Positions 1 through 5,473 of a stretch of 5,473 bases of DNA are shown one piece after another; within the stretch, counting starts at the first letter, position 1; every line of letters starts with the position of its first letter. Made by a program: the position numbers and the translations under genes. Location of the stretch: positions 1 to 5,473 of the forward strand of contig CADBKS010000198.1 of assembly GCA_902795255.1 (NCBI GenBank), written 5' to 3'. Source of the DNA: an uncultured Chloroflexota bacterium. GTDB lineage: Bacteria; Chloroflexota; Anaerolineae; Anaerolineales; Anaerolineaceae. The notes below the pieces were generated by a model. The model saw only the letters and a program-made list of their open reading frames with translations. It was not told the origin of the DNA and ran no database searches.

Positions 1-266
1 CGCAGCTTTCCCGAGGCGTGGAAAAACGCGGCGCGGATTCGGAACCGATGCTTTCGGACCTTCGTGAATCCGGTTCACTGGAACAGGATGCCGACATCGT
101 CATGTTCCTGCACAACCCCAACGCCGGCAAGGAAGCCGAAAGTCCGGAACTGGACGGAGCGGTCAAGCTGCTCGTCAAGAAACACCGTCACGGCCCGGTG
201 GGCAGTGTCGACCTGGTCTTCCTCAAGAGCCAGGCACAGTTTGTAAACGCCGCGCACGAACCGTAG
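1..266 (+). CDS. dnaB: Replicative DNA helicase DnaB, C-terminal end (5' truncated by the window)
   Basis: This is the last 88 residues or so of the hexameric replicative helicase that unwinds the chromosome ahead of the fork. The reading frame enters from outside the window; the first full codon is at position 3, giving QLSRGVEKR. The segment matches the end of the RecA-like ATPase domain of DnaB: the QLSRxVExR motif, then PMLSDLRESGSLEQDAD, the β-strand 'IVMFLHNP', and the KKHRHGPVG segment, which in this family carries the arginine finger reaching the neighbouring subunit's ATP. The protein ends at a TAG at 264-266, shortly after the final strand, as is normal for the family. The stop codon lies inside the Shine-Dalgarno sequence of the next gene, so dnaB and the two primosome genes downstream are probably one transcript. 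The GTG at 18 is internal and not a real start. Confidence 0.93.
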   Translation, partial: QLSRGVEKRGADSEPMLSDLRESGSLEQDADIVMFLHNPNAGKEAESPELDGAVKLLVKKHRHGPVGSVDLVFLKSQAQFVNAAHEP

Positions 267-279
267 GAGCACAGCGGAC

Positions 280-900
280 ATGAACCAGGTCTTTTCAGGC
301 TTCAGCAGCGGGATCGAGGTCGTCCCGACGCAGTTTTTTGAGGAACTGCTTCCGGCCATCGATGACCCGGCCGAGCTGAAGGTCACGTTATTTACGTTCC
401 ACCTGCTCAACCAGTTCGAAGGCGACCAGCGCTTCCTCTTCCGGGAGGATTATTCCGAACAGGAGCCATTCATGCGCGGACTCGCGGAAGACCCGGACGA
501 AGCGGAACATCTTCTGGACCGGGGCCTGACCGCTGCCGAAGAACGGGGGACGATCCTGCGTGCCACCTATGCGGACAAACCGCTGTTTTTTCTCAACAGC
601 CCGAAAGGGCGCGCGGCACTCGCGCGTCTGGAGGACGGGACCTGGATCCCGAACGCGTTTCTCCATATGAGCGGGCAGTCGGAAGTATTCCGACCTACCA
701 TCTTTAAACTCTACGAAGAAAATATCGGACCGCTCACACCGATGATCGCCGATATGCTGCGGGACTGCGAAAAGGAGTACCCGTACGAATGGATCTGCGA
801 CGCTGTCAGTGAAGCCGTCGTCAATAACGCCAGGAGCCTTCGCTACATCGAATCCGTCCTGCGTTCCTGGAAGGAGAACGGACATCATGGAACCTATTAG
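280..900 (+). CDS. DnaD-domain primosome protein
   Basis: A 206-residue protein. Residues about 141-203 match the DnaD-like C-terminal domain: 'YEENIGPLTP' at 145-154, 'YPYEWI' at 167-172, 'NNARSLRYI' at 182-190 and 'WKENG' at 197-201. In Firmicutes, proteins with this domain (DnaD, and DnaB of Bacillus) bind DNA and help recruit the helicase loader during initiation and restart. Residues 1-125 form a separate N-terminal region; 'AELKVTLFTF' at 31-40 is a plausible helix of a winged-helix oligomerisation domain, but I assign that only tentatively. The ATG at 280 follows an AGGAG (265-269) that overlaps the dnaB stop codon. The 3' end overlaps the loader gene by 14 nt, which suggests translational coupling. 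The helicase-DnaD-loader order supports a primosome role. The opening and the ELKVTL stretch resemble Chloroflexota members more than Bacillus DnaD; this is from memory, not a search. Confidence 0.85.
   Translation: MNQVFSGFSSGIEVVPTQFFEELLPAIDDPAELKVTLFTFHLLNQFEGDQRFLFREDYSEQEPFMRGLAEDPDEAEHLLDRGLTAAEERGTILRATYADKPLFFLNSPKGRAALARLEDGTWIPNAFLHMSGQSEVFRPTIFKLYEENIGPLTPMIADMLRDCEKEYPYEWICDAVSEAVVNNARSLRYIESVLRSWKENGHHGTY
871..876 (+). promoter_or_regulatory. Shine-Dalgarno fixing the loader start
   Basis: AAGGAG lies 10 nt before the ATG at 887, inside the end of the DnaD-domain gene. It favours 887 over the in-frame ATG at 809. The 809 start would add 26 residues that lie wholly inside the upstream gene, show no family resemblance, and have no comparable ribosome site. 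Confidence 0.75.
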
Positions 901-2317
901 GAGCATTGCGGAGCGGATCGCCCGCGACTTTATCCCGCCGGAAAATCCGGCCGAACCGCCGCTTGAACCGGAAAACCGCTTCGGTATGGGGGATCCGGAC
1001 TGTCCCCGCTGCCATGGTGTCGGTTTCATCATCAAAGGCAGAGACCCGAATGATCCGTCTTCCGGAAAGATGATCCCCTGTGACTGCCGCACCCGCCGCT
1101 TTGAAAACGACGGAAAAAAGGCGAAGCTCGCCTTTGCCAACCTCAGCGGTTATGAACGAATGACCTTTGACACCTTCGAGGTCGAAGGCCGCGGAGCGCT
1201 GCGCGATGAACAGCGCACCAACCTGACCTACGCCCGCGACTGCGCCAGAAAATTCGCCGAAGAGCCGGACGGCTGGATCTTTTTCACCGGACGTTACGGG
1301 ACCGGGAAAACCCACCTGGCCGCGGCCATCGCCAATGACGCTCTGGAAAAAGGACAGGACGTCATCTTCCAGGCGGTCCCGGACCTGCTGGACCAGCTCC
1401 GCATGACCTACGGGAACACCGGCGAAACCTTTGAGGACCGTTTCGAACGGATTCGCACCGTGAAGCTGCTGGTGCTGGATGATCTGGGCGCCCAGAGCCC
1501 GACTGCCTGGGCGGAAGAAAAACTTTACCAGATCGTGAACTACCGCTACGTCAACAGGCTCCCGACCGTCATAACATCCAACGTCAATCCCCGCGATATG
1601 GACGGCCGGATCGCCTCCCGTCTGAAAGATCCGTTTGTCCGGCGGATCATCATGCAGGTCCCGGATTACCGCGACCCGCTGGCAGGATCCGACGCGCAGG
1701 ACGATATTTCGATCCTGCACCTTCTTTACAGCCGGAATTTCGACAATTTCGACTCCCGGCGCTCCGAACATCTAAGCGACCGCGCTGCCGCGCAGCTGGC
1801 ACGCGCCTATTCGGAGAGTCTGGCATTCGCGCAGGATCCTTCCGGCTGGCTGGTCATTGCCGGTCCCAGCGGAATCGGCAAGACCCACCTGGCCGCAGCC
1901 ATCGGCAACTACCGCAAACAGCGCATGGAAAACCCGATATTCGTCACGGCCTCCGACCTGCTGGACCACCTGCGCGCGACCTTCAGCCCCAACAGCACCA
2001 CCACCTACGATTCCGTCTTTGAACAGGTCCGCAGCACCCCGCTGCTGATCCTGAATTACCTCGACACCATGAACGCGACCCCCTGGTCCAAAGAAAAAAT
2101 GTACCAGATCCTCAATTACCGCTATCAGGCACAGCTGCCGACGGTCATCACCCTGCTCAAACCCGTCCGGGACGTGGACCCGAACATCCGCAGCCGGCTG
2201 GTCGACGCCAATTTCTGCACTGTGGTCCAGATGTTCGACGTGCCCATGTACAACACCAACCCGGAGATCGACCTCAGCGAACTCCGGAATTCAAGACCAC
2301 TGAAAAAAAGAGCCTGA
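887..2317 (+). CDS. Helicase loader with two tandem DnaC/DnaI-type AAA+ domains, second one degenerate
   Basis: A 476-residue protein; DnaC and DnaI are about 245-310. DnaC-family ATPases load DnaB onto DNA. Residues 39-67 hold a CxxC...CxC cluster (C39, C42, C65, C67), a likely zinc site as in the N-terminal domain of DnaI. AAA+ domain 1 spans about 94-262: Walker A GRYGTGKT at 135-142 (K141), Walker B LLVLDDL at 194-200 (D198, D199), sensor 1 TSN at 230-232 and a possible arginine finger in RIASRL (R245). Domain 2 spans about 285-455: Walker A GPSGIGKT at 326-333 (K332), but Walker B reads LLILNYL at 386-392 (DD replaced by NY), and sensor 1 reads TLL at 422-424. The arginine in IRSRL (R437) is kept. 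The two domains are about 45% identical by hand count over 76 residues, so this is an internal duplication. I infer that domain 1 hydrolyses ATP and domain 2 may bind it but not cleave it. Loader identity is firm; the role of domain 2 is inference. Confidence 0.88.
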   Translation: MEPIRSIAERIARDFIPPENPAEPPLEPENRFGMGDPDCPRCHGVGFIIKGRDPNDPSSGKMIPCDCRTRRFENDGKKAKLAFANLSGYERMTFDTFEVEGRGALRDEQRTNLTYARDCARKFAEEPDGWIFFTGRYGTGKTHLAAAIANDALEKGQDVIFQAVPDLLDQLRMTYGNTGETFEDRFERIRTVKLLVLDDLGAQSPTAWAEEKLYQIVNYRYVNRLPTVITSNVNPRDMDGRIASRLKDPFVRRIIMQVPDYRDPLAGSDAQDDISILHLLYSRNFDNFDSRRSEHLSDRAAAQLARAYSESLAFAQDPSGWLVIAGPSGIGKTHLAAAIGNYRKQRMENPIFVTASDLLDHLRATFSPNSTTTYDSVFEQVRSTPLLILNYLDTMNATPWSKEKMYQILNYRYQAQLPTVITLLKPVRDVDPNIRSRLVDANFCTVVQMFDVPMYNTNPEIDLSELRNSRPLKKRA

Positions 2318-3142: not shown

Positions 3143-3264
3143 ACATGCACACACAGTAGCAGAAATCGGTTGAAACTTCATCAATAAGCAAAAACCTTCA
3201 CTAAAGACAGCTAAAGCGTATTAAGAGCCAAGTGTTATTCAAATAAACTTACCATCCGTGACAC
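3143..3264. other. AT-rich gap without a gene
   Basis: This stretch lies between the aldolase terminator and the candidate RNA promoter. Short frames only, no ribosome site followed by a believable coding sequence, no tRNA fold and no repeat that I can see. Its lower GC compared with the flanking genes fits an upstream promoter region. Confidence 0.6.
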
Positions 3265-3270
3265 TATAAT
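3265..3270 (+). promoter_or_regulatory. Candidate -10 element for a small RNA
   Basis: A perfect TATAAT is placed so that transcription would start near 3277, exactly at the first base of a long hairpin. The matching -35 position (about 3242-3247, AATAAA) does not resemble TTGACA and there is no TGn extension, so an activator or alternative recognition would be needed. The placement relative to the hairpin is the main support. Confidence 0.4.
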
Positions 3271-3276
3271 CGGGGT

Positions 3277-3428
3277 GCCGGGGCCGACGGGTGGCCGACA
3301 GGCCAGCCCGATCGGCCCCGGCTAATAAAACCTGGCGCGGCAAGCAGCTTATGCAAACATACGAGCGAGTGTGCCGCGCCTTGCGAAGCACTCACTCCCG
3401 ACTGCAATGTGCTTATCAAAGGGAGCTC
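3277..3428 (+). ncRNA. Candidate structured small RNA, family not recognised
   Basis: There is no open frame here, but three structured parts follow one another. (1) Hairpin 3277-3322: an 11-bp stem (3277-3287 with 3312-3322), continued by 4 bp and 5 bp, with only A3311 and G3306 bulged and a GACA loop. (2) A perfect 9-bp stem GGCGCGGCA (3334-3342) with TGCCGCGCC (3372-3380), enclosing a smaller hairpin whose tip is TATG-CAAA-CATA (3350-3361). (3) A 6-bp stem AAGCAC (3386-3391) with GTGCTT (3409-3414), whose loop holds CTCCC (3395-3399), complementary to GGGAG (3421-3425); together these would make a pseudoknot. The following gene runs on the opposite strand, so this is not a leader of it. 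The motifs of tmRNA, SRP RNA, RNase P RNA and common riboswitches are absent. The 3' end is uncertain. It could instead be an intergenic palindrome element. Confidence 0.45.
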
Positions 3429-4113: not shown

Positions 4114-4173
4114 ATGAACGGAAACCGGCCTTACCCGTGGAAGGCGGGCCGGAGTTTACAGGAAAGAGAATGA
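4114..4173 (+). CDS. Possible 19-codon upstream ORF overlapping the J-protein start
   Basis: ATG at 4114 opens a frame for MNGNRPYPWKAGRSLQERE, ending with TGA at 4171-4173. That stop overlaps the J-protein ATG at 4170 as ATGA, an arrangement typical of coupled translation. No clear Shine-Dalgarno precedes it (only GTAAG), so it may be a chance frame. If translated it could be a leader peptide that disrupts the hairpin at 4125-4152 and controls J-protein synthesis. Confidence 0.25.
   Translation: MNGNRPYPWKAGRSLQERE
4125..4152 (+). other. Hairpin in the J-protein leader
   Basis: CCGGCC (4125-4130) pairs with GGCCGG (4147-4152) around a 16-nt loop that has an alternative CCTT/AAGG pairing. 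It lies 17 nt before the start codon and just upstream of the ribosome site, so it could affect translation. No T-run follows, so it is not a terminator. Confidence 0.4.
4160..4163 (+). promoter_or_regulatory. Shine-Dalgarno fixing the J-protein start
   Basis: AGGA, within AGGAAAGAG, precedes the ATG at 4170 by 6 nt. It places the start at MIEDPYKVLG, the normal opening of a J domain. The in-frame GTG at 4137 lies in the leader hairpin without such a site. Confidence 0.65.
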
Positions 4174-5006
4174 TAGAAGATCCTTATAAAGTATTAGGGG
4201 TCTCCCCTGATGCGACACAAGACGAGATAAAAAAAGCATACCGCCAGATGGCGAAAAAATACCATCCGGACCTGCACCCGGATGATCCGGACGCCAACAA
4301 AAAGATGAACGACGTCAACACGGCATACGACATGCTGATGAACCCGGACAAATGGCAGCAAGCCCGCGCGCGCCAGAGCTACAGCAATTCCTACGAGAGC
4401 AGCAGCTCCTACGGCAGCGGTTCTTACGGCGGCAGCACATACGGCAGCGGCTCACAACAGTACGGACAGTATACCAATCGGCAGTACCGCAGCACTTATG
4501 ACGGCAGCTACGGTTGGACCGGTGATTTCGGATTTGACTGGGATGATTTCTTCGGTTTCGGCAGCACTGCCTACCAGAGCACGAACACCGCACCGCAGGC
4601 CGAAGCTTCCGACTCTCCAGAGATCCGCAGTGTCATCGGCGCCATTAACGCGGGAAACTACCGCGATGCGATCCTGATCCTGACGAAGATCCCCAGCACC
4701 CTGCGGGATGCCCGCTGGCATTATCTCAGCGGAGTGGCGAACCACGGGATGGGCAACAGCCCGCGGGATATCGACATGATGCAGCGCGCCGTCCAGATGG
4801 ACCCGAACAACCGACTCTACCACAGTCTGCTCCAGCAGTACCGGAACGGCAGCCGCACGGCACGGAACACCTACACCTACACGACACAGAATACCGGCGG
4901 CAGCGGATTCTCCATTCTGGGAAAACTGCTGTGGGGGTGGATCCTCATCCAGCTGCTCTTCGGACTGCTGCGGTTTCTGTTTTTCGGCTTCCGCTTCACC
5001 TTCTGA
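4170..5006 (+). CDS. Membrane-anchored J-domain (DnaJ-like) co-chaperone
   Basis: A 278-residue protein. A J domain fills residues 4-65: 'DPYKVLGV' at 4-11, the basic helix 'KKAYRQMAKKYHPD' at 21-34 with the essential HPD at 32-34, then 'YDMLMNPDK'. J domains stimulate the ATPase of an Hsp70 partner. Residues about 69-117 are a low-complexity S/Y/G-rich linker, followed by an aromatic and acidic patch 'GFDWDDFFGFG' at 121-131. Residues about 150-226 form helices resembling two TPR units, ending 'AVQMDPNNRLYHSLLQQY'. Residues about 249-272 are strongly hydrophobic and lie at the very C-terminus, so the protein is probably tail-anchored with the J domain in the cytoplasm. It lacks the zinc-finger and β-sandwich substrate domains of true DnaJ, so it is not dnaJ. 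The dnaK gene follows after 59 nt and is its likely partner. Similar J-TPR-anchor proteins occur in Clostridia, from memory. Confidence 0.86.
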   Translation: MIEDPYKVLGVSPDATQDEIKKAYRQMAKKYHPDLHPDDPDANKKMNDVNTAYDMLMNPDKWQQARARQSYSNSYESSSSYGSGSYGGSTYGSGSQQYGQYTNRQYRSTYDGSYGWTGDFGFDWDDFFGFGSTAYQSTNTAPQAEASDSPEIRSVIGAINAGNYRDAILILTKIPSTLRDARWHYLSGVANHGMGNSPRDIDMMQRAVQMDPNNRLYHSLLQQYRNGSRTARNTYTYTTQNTGGSGFSILGKLLWGWILIQLLFGLLRFLFFGFRFTF

Positions 5007-5013
5007 ACCATTC

Positions 5014-5041
5014 ACCCCGCGGATCCCGCGGGGTTTCTGTT
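5014..5041 (+). terminator. Terminator or attenuator between the J-protein gene and dnaK
   Basis: ACCCCGCGG (5014-5022) and CCGCGGGGT (5026-5034) form a perfect 9-bp stem around ATC, followed by TTTCTGTT. The interrupted T-run suggests partial termination, lowering dnaK relative to the J-protein gene, or else a separate dnaK promoter, for which there is hardly room before 5066. Confidence 0.65.
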
Positions 5042-5065
5042 AACCTTTGAAAGGAACCTGTCACT

Positions 5066-5473
5066 ATGTCAAAAACCATCGGAATCGACCTCGGGACGAC
5101 CAACAGCTGCATGTCCGTTGTTGAAAACGGCCGCCCGATCATTATCCCTAACGATAAAGGGACCCGCACCACGCCCAGCGTGGTAGCCTTCACAAAAGAC
5201 GGTGAACGGCTCGTCGGCATCAGCGCCGCGCGTCAGGCTGCCGTCAACAGCGCCCGCACGGTGCTCTCCGTCAAGCGCGAAATGGGCACGAACTGGCACA
5301 TCGATATCGACGGCAAAAAATTCTCCGCGCAGGAGATCAGCGCCATGATCCTCCGCAAGCTCCGCCAGGATGCCGAAGCTTATCTCGGCGAACCGGTCAC
5401 GGACGCGGTCATCACGGTGCCGGCTTACTTCAACGATATCCAGCGCCAGGCGACCAAGGATGCCGGAAAGATC
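5066..5473 (+). CDS. dnaK: Hsp70 chaperone DnaK, N-terminal part (3' cut by the window)
   Basis: The first 136 residues of an Hsp70; a full protein would be about 570-620. The ATPase domain begins with the phosphate-1 motif [11 protein letters not shown] (5-15), then '[10 protein letters not shown]' (33-42), the catalytic lysine K70 in SVKREMG, and '[10 protein letters not shown]' (115-124) leading into [10 protein letters not shown]. The segment between K70 and the ISAMIL helix is short: it lacks the roughly 24-residue insertion found in proteobacterial DnaK, as in Gram-positive and some other lineages. The ATG is preceded by AAGGA (5051-5055) at 10 nt. It follows a membrane-anchored J-protein and not grpE/dnaJ, and no CIRCE operator is visible, so it may be a second, specialised Hsp70 of the cell rather than the main heat-shock DnaK. 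Substrate-binding domains are outside the window, so this cannot be settled here. Confidence 0.93.

Follow-up and report, generated by a model that had tools for sequence, protein, structure and literature searches.

A tandem DnaC/DnaI-type helicase loader in Chloroflexota with a second ATPase domain expected not to hydrolyse ATP

A loader with two AAA+ domains in a replication operon

We analysed a 5,473-nucleotide stretch of DNA (hereafter the window; contig CADBKS010000198.1 of assembly GCA_902795255.1) from an uncultured Chloroflexota bacterium of the Anaerolineaceae. Its forward strand, on which the loader gene, its parts and its two upstream neighbours lie, carries at 887..2317 an open reading frame (ORF) of 476 aa with an ATG start, identified from the ORF and from Pfam and NCBIfam matches as a tandem-AAA+ helicase loader of the DnaC/DnaI type. 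A ribosome-binding-like site, AAGGAG (871..876), stands 10 nt ahead of the ATG. Upstream are the C-terminus of the replicative helicase DnaB (3..266; the window edge cuts the gene) and, after a gap of 13 bp, a gene for a 206-aa replication initiation protein with a DnaD/DnaB_2 domain (280..900), both recognised by Pfam and NCBIfam; the latter gene overlaps that of the loader by 14 bp (887-900). The window holds a dnaB-dnaD-dnaC operon, and the same gene order recurs across Chloroflexota.

The loader consists of one N-terminal domain with a Cys motif, followed by two DnaC/DnaI-type AAA+ domains (D1 and D2) that are 41% identical to each other; the Pfam model IstB_IS21 (PF01695) matches two stretches of the protein. 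D1 (1136..1672, residues about 84-262) is canonical. Of the motifs of the loader family it has Walker A (GRYGTGKT, G135-T142; 1289..1312), Walker B (D198 D199; 1478..1483), with D199 aligned to E170 of E. coli DnaC, sensor 1 (N232; 1580..1582), and an arginine coupler, R241, with an arginine finger, R245 (1607..1621). The roles of these two arginines are assigned from the RxxxR motif described in PMC8213410 and not from the HMMER alignment, which places R245 on E. coli R216 without a gap. D2 (1712..2251, residues 276-455), which we annotate as a pseudo-ATPase, has an intact AAA+ fold, a P-loop (Walker A GPSGIGKT, G326-T333, including K332; 1862..1885) and the finger, R437. The Walker B pair is degenerate (N390 Y391; 2054..2059), as is sensor 1 (L423 L424; 2153..2158), and the coupler is lost, with N433 in its place (N433 to R437, 2183..2197).

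By alignment to K143, F146, S177 and Y179 of E. coli DnaC, the tetrad that binds single-stranded DNA (ssDNA) corresponds to R172, Y175, T206 and W208 in D1 and to R363, F366, T398 and W400 in D2 (spanning 1973..2086). Sensor 2 (E. coli R237, 17 residues after the finger) falls in a column that is mostly blank, at the end of the domain model; R262 occupies R245 + 17 in D1, and D2 has M454 at the same distance, with N456 at the matching spot of the PxY motif. In the N-terminal domain, the motif C39-x2-C42...C65-x-C67 (1001..1087) is invariant in an 83-row alignment (A1). These cysteines resemble the zinc-binding N-domain of DnaI, and by analogy with that domain, as described in PMC3791466, they may bind zinc.

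An earlier note on this DNA had described two fused DnaC-like domains about 191 residues apart, the first with Walker A, a DD Walker B and N232 intact, and the second with K332 and R437 kept, NY in place of the Walker B acids and LL in place of the sensor 1 residues. Each of these features was located as claimed: the Walker A motifs begin at residues 135 and 326, 191 residues apart, and the NY and LL pairs lie at 390/391 and 423/424. Loss of the coupler is an addition to that list. The expectation of an active D1 joined to a D2 that does not hydrolyse ATP is likewise supported at the level of sequence. A sequencing error cannot account for the NY pair, which is present in 52 distinct proteins, that of the window included. 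A duplication made by the assembly, which the note had allowed for, is ruled out by the 41% identity of D1 and D2 and by the recurrence of the form in many genomes.

Catalytic residues of D2 are widely lost

Three protein searches together with the loci gave 463 distinct proteins, in which the number of AAA+ domains is two (444 proteins), one (13, two of them incomplete database entries), four (4), three (1) or six (1). Over the 444 two-domain proteins, D1 keeps Walker A in 444, Walker B in 440, the sensor 1 Asn in 337 and the finger in 443; the corresponding numbers for D2 are 436, 362, 23 and 429. Most D2 domains (421/444) have thus lost the sensor 1 Asn, a general feature of the set. The P-loop Lys is present in every D1 and every D2 (444/444 each), 442 D1 and 436 D2 domains retain the ssDNA tetrad ([RK][YF][TS]W), and all 52 NY proteins keep the P-loop Lys, finger and tetrad of D2. 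From these counts we conclude that catalysis by D2 has been widely abandoned, whereas its DNA-contact residues, P-loop Lys and finger have been retained. Relatives with an intact D2, which the earlier note had taken as evidence against its proposal, exist in part: DD is found at the D2 Walker B in 362 of the 444, but both domains are fully canonical in only nine. Only D1 is canonical in 328 proteins and neither domain in 98; nine show the reversed asymmetry, with D2 canonical and D1 not.

The persistence of the tetrad in 436 D2 domains despite widespread catalytic decay would also be expected if D2 were mainly an extra module for binding ssDNA or a partner, with an unused nucleotide site and a P-loop conserved for folding only. 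The loss of the P-loop Thr as well in eight of the 52 NY proteins points the same way. However, the P-loop Lys in 444/444 D2 domains and the finger in 429/444 argue against this explanation, which we consider unlikely.

On a 72-row tree the losses are nested, running from DD to D plus H, F or Y, then to NY, and then to a change of the P-loop Thr to Met. A clade of 37 rows (SH-aLRT support 100) has D plus H/F/Y or NY and has lost the coupler in 37/37; the NY group (98) is nested inside it, and the P-loop Thr-to-Met group (100) inside the NY group. The NY pair is best described from this tree as a derived, clade-specific state. The tandem arrangement extends well beyond this genome, being widespread in Chloroflexota; the NY Walker B arose in one clade. 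Separate losses of the D2 Walker B are seen in L031 (DH), L090 (DA) and L115 (DN), and its state changes at least seven times on the tree. The D2 finger was lost separately in the L021/L024 group and in L111/L112, and such loss is a separate route of D2 degeneration. The proteins that lack a D2 finger and have a canonical D1 are L021-L024, L029, L030, L033, L035, P0150, P0209 and L111-L114. Several loci of SAR202/Dehalococcoidia type (L052, L053, L058, L059, L061 and more) have no sensor 1 Asn in either domain, with a DD Walker B in both.

The ratio of nonsynonymous to synonymous substitution rates (dN/dS) is about 0.05 for D2 and 0.07-0.15 for D1 in three pairs (window/L001, window/L002 and L001/L002), rough values given that dS is near or above 1; the remaining 12 pairs have saturated dS in one domain or both. 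The median ratio of D2 to D1 nonsynonymous differences is 0.93 in the NY clade versus 0.88 in a DD group; loss of the site has therefore not loosened D2. Within the NY clade, column entropy averages 0.69 bits over D2 and 0.88 bits over D1, the N and Y columns themselves being fixed by the choice of rows and thus uninformative. D2 therefore looks to be under purifying selection. Although the successive loss of catalytic residues would fit a decaying relic of the duplication, without present function, the low dN/dS and the lower entropy of D2 already disfavour such a relic, and we regard it as highly improbable. Since D2 appears unable to hydrolyse ATP, yet is well conserved, it is probably a built-in structural partner.

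The two-domain form is old and widespread

We scanned 400 Chloroflexota genomes with a loader match threshold of 1e-10. The loader matched in 240, which cover both single-domain (open frame about 270-345 aa) and two-domain forms, and DciA was found in 131. The two occur together in a single genome (G101), where the DnaC match is weak (3.5e-11). DnaC-type loaders and DciA are thus nearly mutually exclusive in these genomes of relatives, and on this ground the window protein is probably the resident DnaB loader. The 1/400 co-occurrence agrees with PMC5109545, which states that dciA was replaced by dna[CI], with one such event in Chloroflexi. A further 30 of the 400 genomes gave no DnaC-type match at 1e-10 and no DciA, and may be incomplete or use another loader.

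A scan of genome contigs gave 197 loci, and each of the best 80 has two AAA+ domains in one ORF. Most titles among these 80 range from Anaerolineae to Dehalococcoidia and SAR202, and the closest loci are metagenome-assembled genomes from the gut, namely goat abomasum (L001) and goat jejunum (L005). The cultured Bellilinea caldifistulae, also of the Anaerolineae, has a two-domain loader (L015). An upstream DnaD-domain ORF on the same strand is present in 121 of 129 fetched loci, and DnaB in 116 (some of these loci share a genome, and four start at a contig edge); the two neighbours are common to two-domain and single-domain loaders. At L039, L128 and L129 the loader ORF directly overlaps the end of the dnaB ORF, and no intervening DnaD-domain ORF was found.

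Single-domain relatives, which the earlier note had thought might betray a recent duplication, do occur at this position of the operon. The duplication is nevertheless old, since the 15 Anaerolineae D2 domains sampled form one clade (support 97). As to a single or a repeated origin of the duplication, in a FastTree analysis one clade (0.909) holds 124 of 128 D2 domains, together with 17 D1 domains and one single-domain row. A phage-rooted IQ-TREE grouped Anaerolineae D1 with D2, weakly. On a 70-row tree a branch with support 82.9 (not starred) has every D2 on the same side; holding Anaerolineae D1 and D2 together on these rows gave a likelihood 12.2 higher, with a p value of 0.746 in the approximately unbiased test. 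A phage origin of the tandem form was rejected: a viral_contigs scan gave two pattern matches, none confirmed, and no relative, and 745 of 50,697 phage records match, none covering 80% of the query at one place. The 30 listed phage places span about 480-690 bp, that is, one AAA+ domain matched by both halves of the query.

A covalent dimer as the favoured arrangement

With a probability of roughly 0.6, we propose that the window protein is the chromosomal DnaB loader of a Chloroflexota (Anaerolineaceae/Flexilinea-like) bacterium and acts as a covalent, asymmetric DnaI-like dimer, with D1 as motor, D2 as pseudo-ATPase and three chains per DnaB hexamer. The domains, motifs, operon and conservation in this proposal are read from the sequence; chain number, unit contacts, nucleotide state and DnaB binding are inferred. 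Each chain would offer an N-terminal domain of helicase-binding type followed by two AAA+ modules. D1 would hydrolyse ATP, while D2 would hold nucleotide through K332, offer its finger (R437) and grip ssDNA (R363, F366, T398, W400) without hydrolysis. Three chains would then place a collar of six AAA+ modules on a single DnaB hexamer, and D2 would serve as a structural unit that is fixed and does not hydrolyse ATP.

Hydrolysis by D2 appears very unlikely because the Walker B pair and sensor 1 are absent; nucleotide binding by D2 is likely. According to PMC8213410, E. coli DnaC loses ATPase activity when the Walker A Lys, Walker B Glu, sensor 1 Asn, finger or sensor 2 is changed. The same paper reports that with the DnaC N-domain alone, DnaB loading still reaches roughly half of wild type; loading may thus persist when ATPase activity is lost. 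The crystal structure of DnaB with DnaI, as described in PMC3791466, contains three dimers of the loader, and the two monomers of each make different contacts with the helicase; a covalent D1-D2 pair would fit this directly.

Several observations weigh against the covalent dimer. The D2 finger is scored as lost in 15 of the 444 proteins (14 without L039, whose letters there are unreadable), and D1 is canonical in all 15; were the D1 site to depend on the D2 finger for completion, loss of that finger should not be tolerated. Neither domain is fully canonical in 98/444, mostly through sensor 1 in both, so that one unit always being active is not a rule of the phylum. Three of the 37 D2-degenerate rows (P0050, P0097 and P0116) keep the D2 sensor 1 Asn, and the order of losses is therefore not strict. 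A hexamer is not a whole number of four-domain chains, and AlphaFold2 leaves the D1-D2 arrangement unfixed (predicted template modelling score, pTM, 0.48).

The finger losses would be explained if six chains per DnaB instead formed two tiers, an active D1 ring and an inactive D2 ring with 12 AAA+ modules in all, as in p97 or NSF, with fingers acting within their own tier. All 15 scored rows (14 without L039) have the canonical D1 that such an arrangement allows, and the 14 finger-less D2 domains beside an intact D1 fit a D1-only tier better. It also explains why D1 retains all four motifs, finger included, in 52/52 NY proteins. Foldseek and VIA give two-domain p97/Cdc48/Rix7 chains that span both domains, although these are loose matches only and the model has the pTM given above. 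We consider two tiers possible but doubtful, and favour the covalent dimer, whose geometry we infer. As to the earlier note's suggestion of a half-size assembly with alternating catalytic and structural sites, an assembly of three chains is plausible, but the 14 relatives with a canonical D1 and no D2 finger speak against strict alternation.

Longer chains with up to six AAA+ units

P0121 (1224 aa) has six AAA+ units, P0038, P0141, P0176 and P0243 have four, and P0240 has three, which rules out a rule of even numbers only. The front units of these chains are 52-86% identical to one another, whereas each last unit has diverged and shares 28-46% identity with the others. The chains come from single- or double-contig entries; that their repeats are not identical argues against misassembly. 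P0038, P0141 and P0240 have canonical front units. In P0121 four of five have every tested motif, the exception being the third, with Ser at sensor 1; the front units of P0176 and P0243 lack the sensor 1 Asn, with DG at Walker B as well in P0243. We tentatively suggest, while thinking it unlikely, that front units of D1 type were multiplied within a chain (1, 2, 3 or 5 copies) ahead of one diverged end unit, in which case P0121 would be a cracked DnaC hexamer in a single polypeptide, its last unit marking the crack. In the cracked hexamer of E. coli DnaC, composite sites lie at 5/6 interfaces (PMC8213410).

Other features of the window

The downstream aldolase and J-protein genes were rejected as parts of the system: tblastn found no match to them in the fetched loci at 1e-10 or 1e-3, in a run where DnaD and DnaB queries did match at 1e-3, many loci carrying short flanks only. 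The J-domain protein (4137-5473) has a weak TPR match, under the Pfam cut-off, and immediately precedes a dnaK-like gene. An intergenic stretch at 3262-3412 (forward strand) folds strongly (-81.1 kcal/mol, where shuffled sequences average -55.8; z -6.5). No Rfam family reaches its gathering score there, the only matches being weak microRNA hairpins (24 bits, cut-off 100), and blastn against the fetched loci found no similar sequence; the element is possibly an unclassified RNA.

Relation to known loaders and significance

The window protein shares with DnaI (4m4w, 2w58, 5he8) the AAA+ fold, a Cys-motif N-domain (zinc-binding in DnaI) and a DnaD-domain partner gene, and a trimer of dimers on DnaB is reported for DnaI in PMC3791466. 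However, DnaI has one AAA+ domain per chain, judging from structure names and lengths, and no covalent dimer. The Walker motifs, sensor 1, coupler, finger and ssDNA tetrad of DnaC (E. coli 6qel/6qem; 3ecc) all have counterparts in D1, and its P-loop, tetrad and finger have counterparts in D2, but DnaC has 245 aa and one AAA+ domain and forms a cracked ring of six separate protomers (PMC8213410). IstB of IS21 is alike in sequence family (PF01695) and fold, whereas the neighbours in the window are DnaB and a DnaD-domain protein, with no IS21 transposase. The Chloroflexi dna[CI] of PMC5109545 is very probably the same gene as the window loader; that paper describes a single domestication of phage-type dna[CI] in Chloroflexi, and its main text gives no match to 'tandem', 'two AAA' or 'fused'. 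Literature searches, with subscription papers largely outside their range, found no description of a tandem DnaC/DnaI-type loader. DnaC/DnaI loaders usually have one AAA+ domain per chain and the window protein has two; we therefore file it as a tandem variant of the family and not as a plain DnaC/DnaI. We conclude that it is real, not an artefact, and that the loader family to which it belongs as a tandem form is a known one.

DnaC/DnaI loaders have been studied as assemblies of identical subunits, in which the role of each ATP site is hard to ask. In many Chloroflexota the replication helicase is apparently loaded by a protein that joins two ATPase units, or in rare cases as many as six. Such chains give the units fixed positions, and lineages have lost different single elements (sensor 1, Walker B, the P-loop Thr or the finger) in one unit, an informative natural series; a few chains have three, four or six units. 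This makes it directly testable how many hydrolysing sites, and in which positions, are required for opening the DnaB ring.
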